Shown one piece after another: positions 59,673-63,970 of a stretch of 64,000 bases of DNA; position 1 is the stretch's first letter; each line of letters opens with the position of its first letter. The notes below the pieces were generated by a model. That model worked only from the letters and a program-made list of their open reading frames with translations. It was not told the origin of the DNA and searched no databases. The DNA is from Polyangiaceae bacterium. GTDB lineage: Bacteria; Myxococcota_A; Polyangia; Polyangiales; Polyangiaceae. Location: the NCBI GenBank assembly GCA_025937785.1, contig JAICQQ010000001.1, positions 1 through 64,000 of the forward strand. The letters run 5' to 3'. A program made the translations under genes and the position numbers.

Positions 59673-59834
59673 GACGCAGCGCGGTGGGTTGGCGTTCGAG
59701 TAAATCCTGTAAGCCAAATAAAGACGCCACCGAATGCCCAGATCGAGGCCGAGCTCCGACCTCTGCCGGGTTCCCCCGGGCCGCAGTTCGGTCAGGCGAA
59801 GGGAACACAGCCGCCCTCTCAATGGGCGGCTGGG

Positions 59835-59919
59835 CGGAGGCGAAGGGATTCGAACCCCTGGTAGGTTGCCCTACGGCGGTTTTCAAAACCGCTGCCTTCG
59901 ACCACTCGGCCACGCCTCC
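59835..59919 (-). tRNA. tRNA-Ser (UGA anticodon)
   Basis: On the minus strand an 85-nt cloverleaf is visible. The acceptor stem GGAGGCG pairs with CGCCTCC, followed by a G discriminator; CCA is not encoded. The anticodon stem GCGGT/ACCGC encloses loop TTTGAAA with anticodon TGA, which reads the serine codon UCA. The long variable arm (GTAGGGCAACCTAC) is typical of type II tRNAs, and the T loop TTCGAAT is normal. A weak TTGCCA-N17-TATCTC pair lies just upstream (59927-59955), too close to be certain. Confidence 0.95.
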
Positions 59920-60000
59920 GCCGGTCGAGATAGTGTCTTGCTGCCGGCCTGGCAAGAGGCTTCAAGGCGCCAGATTGTCAGGCCGCTGCCAAGCTGGCAG

Positions 60001-63000
60001 TCAGAGCTTGTCCTTGGGGACGGCGGAGGGGGGCGGGGCTATGTGGAGGGGAGCTCCGCGCTGGAACGTACGACCTTCGCTGACGACGTAGGCGATGCTG
60101 AGCGTGTTGTGGATGTCAACGAGCGGATCCTTGTCGAGCAGGACCAGATCGGCGAATTTGCCGGGTGCGAGGGAGCCGAAGTGTTCCGCCGTGCCGAGCG
60201 CTTCGGCGTTGCCCAGCGTGGCTTGGCGCAGGATTTGGAGCGGGGTGAGGCCCGCGTGGGCGAGGTGCCAAAGCTCGGTATGGAGGCAGTGGCCGTAGAA
60301 GCAATCGGCGTCGGGCGTGCCGCTGCCGACCGCGATGCGAACATCCCCATGGTGGGCGAGCTGAAAGCCCCCGACGGTGCGATCGTAGGCTTGCTGCCGG
60401 AGCTCGGGGGTGAGGCTGCGAGCCCAGTCTGGACTGTGACTACGCTCGGCCGCGGAGGTGAGGGCCGCCAGCAGGGGGTCGTTGCGGCGTTCGGACTCTT
60501 GCCGGAAGAGAACGAGGTTGCCCCAGGGAGCGGCGAGCGAGGTCACCACGGTGGTTTGGGTTTTGGCGAGAAGCTGCACCAGGTCGTTCGCGATGGGGGT
60601 GGCTCCGCTGAGGCCCGGCGCTGACCAATGGCCGAGGAGGGCACCGAGGACGAGCTGCTCGCGGTCGTGGCCCGCGCCTGAAATGACGAGACCTTGCTTG
60701 GCGGCTTCGTTCGCGAGTACGCGCTGCAGTGGCCACGAGAGCTCCGGGGCTGCGAGGAGGCCGTGGGCGCCTTCCGCCTTCGCGGCCCGTACTCGCTCGC
60801 GCAGCGCCTGTTCGGTCAGGACGGGTCCGCCCCCGTTTGAGTACGCGACTGTTTTTATAATGCTGGGGTGGCTGAGAATCCGGGGGACGGCAGCGCCCCA
60901 GACCCGACGCCGGTCGGTCCAGCCCTGACTCAGCGCCTGGTCGCTCCCGACATCCAGCACGGTCGTGACCCCGAAGGCGAGGAAGGCGGCGAGCTGCGCG
61001 ACGCCAGCCGGAGCGCTCCTCGTAGAGCGCGGGGCGAGGCGGGTACGGGCGTCAATGAGGCCCGGGAGGGCAAAGCGGCCGGCGGCGTCGAGGATTCGAG
61101 CTTCCAGGGTCGGTTTGTGGTCCTTTTCGGCGCCGATCCACTGGATGCGGCCCTTGTCGATGTAGATGGAGACTGGATCGTTGAAACGGCCGCGCTCGAA
61201 GTCGATGGGGCGGGCGTTGCGCACCAGCAGGGGTTCATCCGCCGAAGGCGGTAGCTCGAGCGACGCGATGGCCTTCCTGTCCGTGGCCACGCTCTGTTGC
61301 AGGACCTGGCGGCCGCTCGCGTAGACGAAGGTTGGGGCCGTGCCGCTAGCGCTCGGAGCAAAGCTGAAATCGCGGCCCCCGGTCGCTGACACCATCATGG
61401 CCCCTTCGTCGGGGATGGTGACCGACTCGGACTTGGGTGATGCCCACCACAGCTCGTCACCGCGACCGAAGGCGACCGATTGACCGTCGGGAGCCACGAG
61501 CGCGCGGTCGAAGGGGGTCGCGAAGCTGGTGACGGGGACAGGCACGACTTTCCCGGTCGCTTTCAGGGGCAGCTTCATGACCTGGCCGCCGTCGCTGTAA
61601 TAGAGCCAGGCCCCGTCGCCGGAGAAGTGTGGCGTCGGCTGCCAGCTGCCCTGAGTCCCCCAGGTCGAGCGCTTCGCCGAAGGCAGATCGATGAGGTGGA
61701 TGTGCGGCACTCCGGCTACCGGGGCGACGTAGGCCAGTTCCGTGCCGTTCGGGTGCCAAGCGGGTTGAAAGTTAACGGTGCGATCACTGGTCGCCAGCGT
61801 GCGCACGGTGGTGCCGCTCAGCAGCTCGATGACCCGAAGCTCCTGGTTGAAGCCCTGGGTGACCTGCACCGCCACGCGGGTGCCGTCGGGTGAGGGCGCG
61901 GCGGGTCCCCATTCGAAGCCGTCGAGATCGCGGAGCACCCGTCTCGCCCGGGTAGCGTCCTTGGCCTGGTGCCAGAGAAAGCCGGCGGCCGTGAACAGGA
62001 GCTCGCCGCTCTTCGGGATCACGCGGGGATCGGTGGGCGCCATCGGTCCCGCTGCGGGCAGACTCCAGCGCGGCGTCGCATGCGGCAGCACCTCGAGGGA
62101 GGCCTGAAGCGAGAGGCGCAACGGCTGCTTCTTGCCGGTCCCCGTATCCACCTGCCAGAGCGTGCCGCGTTCACACAGCCAGAGCTGGCCGCCCTGGGCG
62201 CTGAAACGCGCATTCGGAGCCGCAGGTTCCACGCTGGTGACGGGCTTGGGGTCGCCTCCCGGCAGCCGCACGCTCACGATGCTGGTGGGCTGAGGATCGG
62301 CGGGACCGCCGCCGGGAGCCGGCAGCACCTCGAGAAAGATGCTGTCGCTCTCGGGGTCGCGGACGATGTCGACGACCGCACCCTTCACGTTGAGTTCCGT
62401 CGTCGCCTTTCCGGTCTTGTCCAGCGCCAGAAGCTGGCTCGTAGCGGCCCCGGGCTCGCGCGCGGACCACACCAGCCGGCCATCATCGAGAAAGCCGACG
62501 GCTTCGATCGGCCCGGGTTCGGAGCGCGTGTAAATGCGCCCCGCGCCGAGCTCGACCCAGCGCGCCTGGGTACCGCCCGTGGGTGGTCGGCTCAAAAAGC
62601 TGAGTGCCTTGCCGTCCGGAGACCACGAGGGTTGAGATGCGTGCGTCGCTCCCTTGATCTCGGAAGTCTCCCCCGTGCTGAGATTCAGCAGGAACAGGTT
62701 GGCCACGCCGCTTGGGCCTCGGTTCGACACGAACGCGAGGCGGCGGCCGTCGGGCGAAACGGCCGGCTCTCGGTCGTAGTGAGGGCCGAAGGTCAGCTGC
62801 TCGGCGTCACCACCTTTGGCCGAGAGGCGGTACAAATGGCCGAGGGCGTTGAAGGCGAGCCACTTGCCGTCGGGCGCGATCGCGACGTCAGCCGCGGTGA
62901 CGTGCGCTGCGACGATCTCCAGGCTTTCGGTGCCGGGGGTGCGCTTTGCCGCTGATTTCGCGGAGGCAGATGGGGGCGGCGGCAAGGTCGACGGCGCATT

Positions 63001-63096
63001 CGTCGGCGGCGGTGAACCGCACGCCGCGCTGCTCAGGGCCACCAGCACGAACGGCCATGGAAACCTACGGGACCCCTGCTTCCGCTTGCCTCGCAT
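60001..63096 (-). CDS. Beta-propeller (PD40) and amidohydrolase fusion lipoprotein, HxH missing
   Basis: The ATG at 63096 starts a lipoprotein signal (LSSAAC) and a 1031-residue protein. Residues 60-600 contain repeated WD40-like/PD40 (TolB-type) units, e.g. LTFGPHYDREPAVSPDGRRLAF and FQPAWHPNGTELAYV, which form beta propellers. Residues 640-1031 form an amidohydrolase-like domain: GRFALPGLIDARTRLAPR where active members have PGLIDxHxH, later AGHDREQLVLGAL, and GDVRIAVGSGTPDAD. The HxH metal ligands are absent, so normal hydrolase activity is doubtful. The terminal EHFGSLAPGKFADLVLLDKDPL is typical of the family. Confidence 0.85.
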   Translation of the reverse strand: MRGKRKQGSRRFPWPFVLVALSSAACGSPPPTNAPSTLPPPPSASAKSAAKRTPGTESLEIVAAHVTAADVAIAPDGKWLAFNALGHLYRLSAKGGDAEQLTFGPHYDREPAVSPDGRRLAFVSNRGPSGVANLFLLNLSTGETSEIKGATHASQPSWSPDGKALSFLSRPPTGGTQARWVELGAGRIYTRSEPGPIEAVGFLDDGRLVWSAREPGAATSQLLALDKTGKATTELNVKGAVVDIVRDPESDSIFLEVLPAPGGGPADPQPTSIVSVRLPGGDPKPVTSVEPAAPNARFSAQGGQLWLCERGTLWQVDTGTGKKQPLRLSLQASLEVLPHATPRWSLPAAGPMAPTDPRVIPKSGELLFTAAGFLWHQAKDATRARRVLRDLDGFEWGPAAPSPDGTRVAVQVTQGFNQELRVIELLSGTTVRTLATSDRTVNFQPAWHPNGTELAYVAPVAGVPHIHLIDLPSAKRSTWGTQGSWQPTPHFSGDGAWLYYSDGGQVMKLPLKATGKVVPVPVTSFATPFDRALVAPDGQSVAFGRGDELWWASPKSESVTIPDEGAMMVSATGGRDFSFAPSASGTAPTFVYASGRQVLQQSVATDRKAIASLELPPSADEPLLVRNARPIDFERGRFNDPVSIYIDKGRIQWIGAEKDHKPTLEARILDAAGRFALPGLIDARTRLAPRSTRSAPAGVAQLAAFLAFGVTTVLDVGSDQALSQGWTDRRRVWGAAVPRILSHPSIIKTVAYSNGGGPVLTEQALRERVRAAKAEGAHGLLAAPELSWPLQRVLANEAAKQGLVISGAGHDREQLVLGALLGHWSAPGLSGATPIANDLVQLLAKTQTTVVTSLAAPWGNLVLFRQESERRNDPLLAALTSAAERSHSPDWARSLTPELRQQAYDRTVGGFQLAHHGDVRIAVGSGTPDADCFYGHCLHTELWHLAHAGLTPLQILRQATLGNAEALGTAEHFGSLAPGKFADLVLLDKDPLVDIHNTLSIAYVVSEGRTFQRGAPLHIAPPPSAVPKDKL

Positions 63097-63199: not shown

Positions 63200-63970
63200 G
63201 TGCAGTCAGCTCGCACTTTTCAGATTTGGTCACTGTTCGCTCTACCGCTCGCTTTGGCAGCAAGCTGCGGACCGGGATTGCCCTCGGAAGTACCTTTGGG
63301 CGGGTTCGACAGCCCTGTTGACTCCGAGTCGCGGGGAGGCAGCTCGCGTGCGCCGGACGGAGCGCGCGCCGAGGGCTCGGATTTCGAGGGTGAAGGGGGC
63401 GCGGGGGACGAGGCCGAGGCGGAGAAAGACGGCGCCGACGGCTCCGACGACACCGACGAAGCGACCGCCACACCAAGCGCTCCCGCGCCCAAAAAGGACG
63501 AGAAGAAGCCAGCAACGGAGGGGCCCGCCGCGCCGGCAGCCGCCGCTACCACACCCGCGGCACCCTGCGACGACACGAGCGGGAGTGAACCGGGCTGCGG
63601 CGAGCTCCAGAGCGGTGCCTGCGGCTCCGTCTTCGGTCCCCTGTGCGAACAGCTGGGCGCCGCCCTCAAGCCGAAGGTCGCGACGGCGATCGTTCAGTGT
63701 CTGGTCGAAAACAACCGGCGTTCGCGCTGCGAGTCGATCGAAGAGTGCCTCGAGCGGGGGCTCGAGCAGGTCTGCGTGGCACCCCCCGATCGCGAGGTGT
63801 GCGAGAAGCTGTTCGCTCGCTGCGATCCGCCTGAGGAGGGCCCGTGGCAGGACGTCGACCACTGCGCCAAAGGCGTGGCGTCGCTCAAGAAGGCGGCCCG
63901 AGCGAAGGTCGTGGAGTGCCTCGAGGACAGCTGCGGCCTCGAGACGTGTTTCCTGAAAGCTGGCACCTGA
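63200..63970 (+). CDS. Acidic lipoprotein with Cys-rich C-terminus
   Basis: The GTG at 63200 starts a signal sequence with lipobox LAASC and a 256-residue protein; upstream parts of the track ORF overlap the antisense of the amidohydrolase gene. A long acidic, Ala/Pro-rich linker (residues 20-115) is followed by a compact C-terminal domain with about twelve cysteines (CGELQSGACGSVFGPLC, CESIEECLERGLEQVC, CAKGVASLKKAARAKVVECLEDSC). Regular Cys pairs suggest disulphides. No family is recognised. Its stop codon lies in the loop of a tandem hairpin repeat. Confidence 0.7.
   Translation: MQSARTFQIWSLFALPLALAASCGPGLPSEVPLGGFDSPVDSESRGGSSRAPDGARAEGSDFEGEGGAGDEAEAEKDGADGSDDTDEATATPSAPAPKKDEKKPATEGPAAPAAAATTPAAPCDDTSGSEPGCGELQSGACGSVFGPLCEQLGAALKPKVATAIVQCLVENNRRSRCESIEECLERGLEQVCVAPPDREVCEKLFARCDPPEEGPWQDVDHCAKGVASLKKAARAKVVECLEDSCGLETCFLKAGT

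Follow-up and report, generated by a model that had tools for sequence, protein, structure and literature searches.

A predicted lipoprotein from a member of the Polyangiaceae joining a beta-propeller to an amidohydrolase domain with all six metal-site residues replaced

The gene at 60001..63096 (minus strand) of the window, by which we mean the whole 64,000-nucleotide stretch of DNA that was analysed, encodes a protein whose amidohydrolase domain has other residues at all six metal positions of its superfamily. In an alignment with 82 relatives, these positions are R684, R686, L781, A808, G828 and G926, where the same columns hold H, H, K, E or H, H, and H or D. We consider the protein to be, with good probability, an exported and likely lipid-anchored relative of other propeller–amidohydrolase fusions, the barrel of which has turned into a pseudoenzyme. 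Its features, and the one tRNA gene of the window, are as follows.

60001..63096, minus strand: whole gene (1,030 aa), with signal peptide and lipobox, beta-propeller region and probable pseudo-amidohydrolase domain
63019..63096, minus strand: predicted signal peptide with lipobox FVLVALSSAAC, Cys26 being the predicted lipidation residue (PROSITE-style lipobox pattern, sequence)
61285..62934, minus strand: PD40/TolB-like beta-propeller region, residues 55-604 (Pfam PD40; collinear alignment to the fusion L064)
60031..61260, minus strand: amidohydrolase-like domain, residues about 613-1022 (Pfam Amidohydro_1; family profile matches PDB amidohydrolases)
61039..61047, minus strand: R684-T-R686 replacing HxH, metal alpha site (His at both columns in 81/81 relatives reaching them)
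60754..60756, minus strand: L781 replacing the bridging Lys (K in 82/82 relatives)
60673..60675, minus strand: A808 replacing the strand 5 Glu/His, beta site (E in 47/82 relatives, H in 35/82)
60613..60615, minus strand: G828 replacing the strand 6 His, beta site (H in 82/82 relatives)
60319..60321, minus strand: G926 replacing the strand-8 Asp/His (H in 53/82 relatives, D in 29/82)
60280..60312, minus strand: strand-8 loop DADCFYGHCLH with C932, H936, C937 and H939, a candidate disulfide or replacement metal site (alignment)
60064..60276, minus strand: conserved C-terminal segment, residues 941-1011, GSLAPGKFADLVLLDKDPL... (identity to full-length fusions)
59831-59920, minus strand: tRNA-Ser (TGA), 80 bp downstream of the gene and the sole tRNA in the window

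Gene, domain order and relatives

The minus-strand reading frame opens with an ATG at 63096 and closes with a stop codon at 60001-60003, giving 1,030 residues plus stop, and the gene stands alone, outside any operon. Upstream and divergent from it, at a distance of about 105 bp, lies a cysteine-rich, lipoprotein-like open reading frame (63202-63970, plus strand, start approximate) with a long Ala/Glu/Asp/Pro-rich linker. Elsewhere on the contig, a DUF72 protein is 59% identical to its counterpart in genome G020, so that at least one gene besides the one studied ties the contig to its stated family.

The lipobox pattern is satisfied at C26 (PROSITE-style match), which makes the protein a candidate outer-membrane or surface lipoprotein. 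Pfam recognizes PD40 propeller repeats (E 3.6e-24 to 3.9e-26) and Amidohydro_1 (PF01979; E 5.5e-12 to 5e-13), the latter match being confined to residues 938-1009; together with the alignment to the 82 relatives, this match makes the domain a member of the amidohydrolase superfamily by descent. Predicted export, a PD40 propeller followed by an amidohydrolase domain, and collinear homology likewise assign the whole protein to the propeller–amidohydrolase fusion family. The earlier note had called a large lipoprotein of this kind unusual, a judgement that is not supported: of the full-length sequences examined, 13 others share this architecture, and the lipobox pattern is found in L064, L135 and L136 as well.

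Full-length fusions of the kind called subtype 1 below are collinear with the studied protein over about 950 residues, at E values down to 5e-42; L064, from the same order as the window genome, aligns at residues 57-1011 with 24% identity (E 2e-40). A scan of 84,980 species genomes with exact 8-residue patterns, a procedure that misses most relatives below about 70-80% identity, recovered L065, several Undibacterium fusions and Bacteroidota fusions, and the phylum genome draw and class genomes supplied further fusions by the dozen. The known fusions split into two subtypes, each with every metal ligand. Subtype 1 (among others L064, L065, L136 and the Undibacterium sequence L067) resembles the studied protein in domain order and length, at 18-26% identity by domain, but carries the motifs HxH, K, PEGG, IEH and GAHGQ, none of which is present here. 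Subtype 2 (L135, L158-L160) is alike in architecture, at 21-26% identity, and differs in having six intact ligands within the motifs ESHTH, VKTY, ASH, H and GTDSP. L158-L160 come from the window genome's own family, and subtype 2 as a whole (L138-L140, L158-L160, L135) is found both in one genus of that family and in another class of the same phylum. The studied protein lies about equally far from both subtypes (propeller 18-23%, amidohydrolase 21-26% identity) and belongs to neither: it falls outside the 41-row subtype-1 clade, and its tree placement is unstable because its branch is very long.

No orthologue was found in the order (184 genomes), queried with the amidohydrolase part and then with the propeller part, nor among 59 relatives, in the class, in the even phylum draw or in another class of the phylum. 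One orthologue search used a cut-off so strict that nothing at all passed it, and it carries no weight alone. In the host genome, no second propeller–amidohydrolase fusion was visible to the searches; the best other amidohydrolase match is L137 on contig 165, an intact separate protein. L137 has about 765 aa and an extra C-terminal domain of unknown type. The studied protein is thus a singleton so far, and our literature search returned no description of the propeller–amidohydrolase fusion family, subtype 2 included.

The family profile and the fold search both place among the nearest solved structures PDB 2qs8, 3mtw, 3be7 and 2p9b, Xaa-Pro dipeptidase or Arg carboxypeptidase-like amidohydrolases that, unlike the studied protein, are active metalloenzymes without a propeller. 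AlphaFold models were of low confidence both at full length (mean pLDDT 49) and for the amidohydrolase domain alone (10 sequences; mean pLDDT 47, pTM 0.47); they display helix/strand alternation, with geometry too poor to resolve a TIM barrel plus beta-sandwich or the barrel centre. With the weak domain model as a Foldseek query, amidohydrolases top the list at a TM of about 0.3 and an rmsd of about 16 A, which amounts to local similarity only.

Loss of the metal site

The earlier note had reported the HxH motif missing at the start of the amidohydrolase domain, and this is confirmed: residues 678-689 read PGLIDARTRLAP, and both Arg columns hold His in all relatives scored there, one of the 82 ending short of them. 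Its check of HxH in orthologues came out in part, in that every relative reaching the region has the motif but none of these relatives is an orthologue. Its statement that later conserved segments are present holds for the structural glycines and prolines and for the C-terminal GSLAPGKFADLVLLDKDPL segment, all retained, and fails for the later ligands, replaced by L781, A808, G828 and G926. Measured against the published superfamily motif, His-X-His-X83-140-Lys-X25-70-His-X18-25-His-X52-143-Asp (PMC4407906), the spacing fits (X94, X26, X19, X97) but the residues do not. Since all four spacings lie within the motif ranges, the identification of the six positions is supported, and the catalytic metal motif of the superfamily is altered at six of six residues.

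The missing HxH need not by itself mean inactivity, because molinate hydrolase, whose HxH contains one Asn, and the NagA of E. coli, with QxN, are both active with a single beta-site metal (PMC4407906, PMC3880350). Molinate hydrolase loses its activity when the Lys, or either of the His residues that bind metal, is changed to Ala (PMC4407906). As such mononuclear enzymes keep the beta-site His residues that the studied protein lacks, a pseudo-amidohydrolase is the most fitting reading of the latter. The proposal of a pseudoenzyme or binding protein, made before this analysis, is therefore well supported, the whole metal site being gone.

Columns were counted as conserved when 85% or more of the relatives share one residue, and the studied protein retains 27 of the 38 such columns, all four single-residue ligand columns being among the 11 lost. 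Non-ligand conserved columns are thus retained in 27 of 34 cases (seven lost), against none of the four single-residue ligand columns (Fisher p = 0.0045). Another relative, L024, is off consensus at 12 conserved columns, yet has all its ligands. By these column counts, the ligand loss is directed rather than a part of overall decay.

Decay, relocation and artefact

First, the gene might be a decaying pseudogene, or its amidohydrolase part non-functional ballast behind a working propeller, which we hold to be rather unlikely. A singleton that is orthologue-free in its order would agree with decay, as would the faster evolution of its amidohydrolase part, on which the terminal branch measures 4.1 versus 2.95 on the propeller; subtype 1 follows the opposite trend, with the amidohydrolase part more conserved than the propeller. 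However, the losses cluster on ligands rather than scattering, the scaffold residues are conserved, and identity to the other full-length fusions, 17-23% in the barrel core, reaches 32-53% in the C-terminal segment. The frame has zero stops across 1,030 codons, whereas base composition predicts about eight for the amidohydrolase part by itself, and the GC content at the three codon positions (73.5/50.4/80.7) is that of a normal gene. Given the intact frame, the normal codon periodicity and the conserved C-terminal segment, recent decay is unlikely; frame, codon composition and scaffold conservation are indirect signs that suggest selection on the product as a protein.

Second, the domain might still catalyse, or use metal structurally, through a non-canonical site in a new location, such as C932/H936/C937/H939. 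The loop cluster has the pattern C-X3-H-C-X-H, and its residues C932, H936 and C937, missing from nearly all relatives and directly following the lost strand-8 ligand, are nearly private to the studied protein; H939 and E941 are widely conserved. Amidohydrolases with altered alpha sites are known (PMC4407906, PMC3880350), but these variants retain the beta-site His pair, whereas the studied protein has neither these residues nor the Lys, and the two cysteines, spaced by five residues, could in an exported protein just as easily form a disulfide. We therefore consider relocation, and with it the different metal site envisaged in the earlier note, unlikely, though the loop cluster keeps it conceivable. 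That the Cys/His cluster is a new metal centre replacing the canonical site, by which the barrel would catalyse a different reaction or would sense or bind metal in the envelope, appears more doubtful still.

Third, it is conceivable, if very improbable, that an alignment error hides a canonical site persisting in another part of the barrel. Two histidines, H810 and H823, are close to lost ligands, and in some alignments the strand-8 His of subtype 1 is matched to H916. The HxH position is nonetheless set unambiguously by PGLID, the surroundings of residue 781 contain no Lys, and H810 and H823 are only 12 residues apart where the motif requires 18-25. As a strand-8 ligand, H916 was rejected, since VRIAVGS aligns with strand 8 of the solved enzymes (VKIAFGTD) and H915/H916 precede the strand; even with H916 granted, five of the six ligands are still lost.

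Finally, a sequencing or assembly error behind RTR has a negligible chance, for although either Arg codon (CGT and CGC) is one A-to-G transition from His, four more ligand positions, at distances of as much as about 730 bases, are also replaced, in several cases by a change of two bases, and six scattered replacements exclude a single base error in practice.

Proposed role and known pseudo-amidohydrolases

If the barrel has indeed become a pseudoenzyme, it would presumably still fold, while binding no catalytic metal pair and hydrolysing nothing, and could act as a ligand-binding or oligomerization module beside the propeller. By analogy, the role we regard as most likely is that the barrel was retained for binding or assembly in an envelope lipoprotein, a use paralleled by the CRMPs and by an inactive dihydroorotase. 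Which of the two roles applies can only be guessed, assembly being, on the same analogies, perhaps somewhat more likely.

The CRMP/DPYSL pseudo-dihydropyrimidinases of animals kept the fold and lost the metal site, with the bridging Lys changed to Leu, as in the studied protein (PMC4051505). CRMP-4 has lost four of the six metal residues, including this Lys-to-Leu change (PMC4051505), and so retains two ligands where the studied protein has none; the CRMPs are moreover cytosolic, without a propeller, and from a different amidohydrolase branch. An inactive dihydroorotase is required for the assembly of some bacterial aspartate transcarbamoylases, a bacterial amidohydrolase fold being retained for assembly after catalysis was lost (PMC4581275), which is the parallel proposed here. 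That protein, unlike ours, is a cytosolic, separate subunit of a biosynthetic enzyme, again without a propeller.

The general importance of a single sequence is limited. Within this limit, the gene illustrates that, metal-dependent amidohydrolases being usually annotated by fold and C-terminal signature, Pfam would label a protein an amidohydrolase despite its having no metal ligand at all. It also clearly exemplifies the loss of an entire metal site in a predicted bacterial envelope protein whose relatives keep theirs, and, if the barrel folds, it would be a case from nature of a TIM-barrel enzyme turned to binding or assembly.
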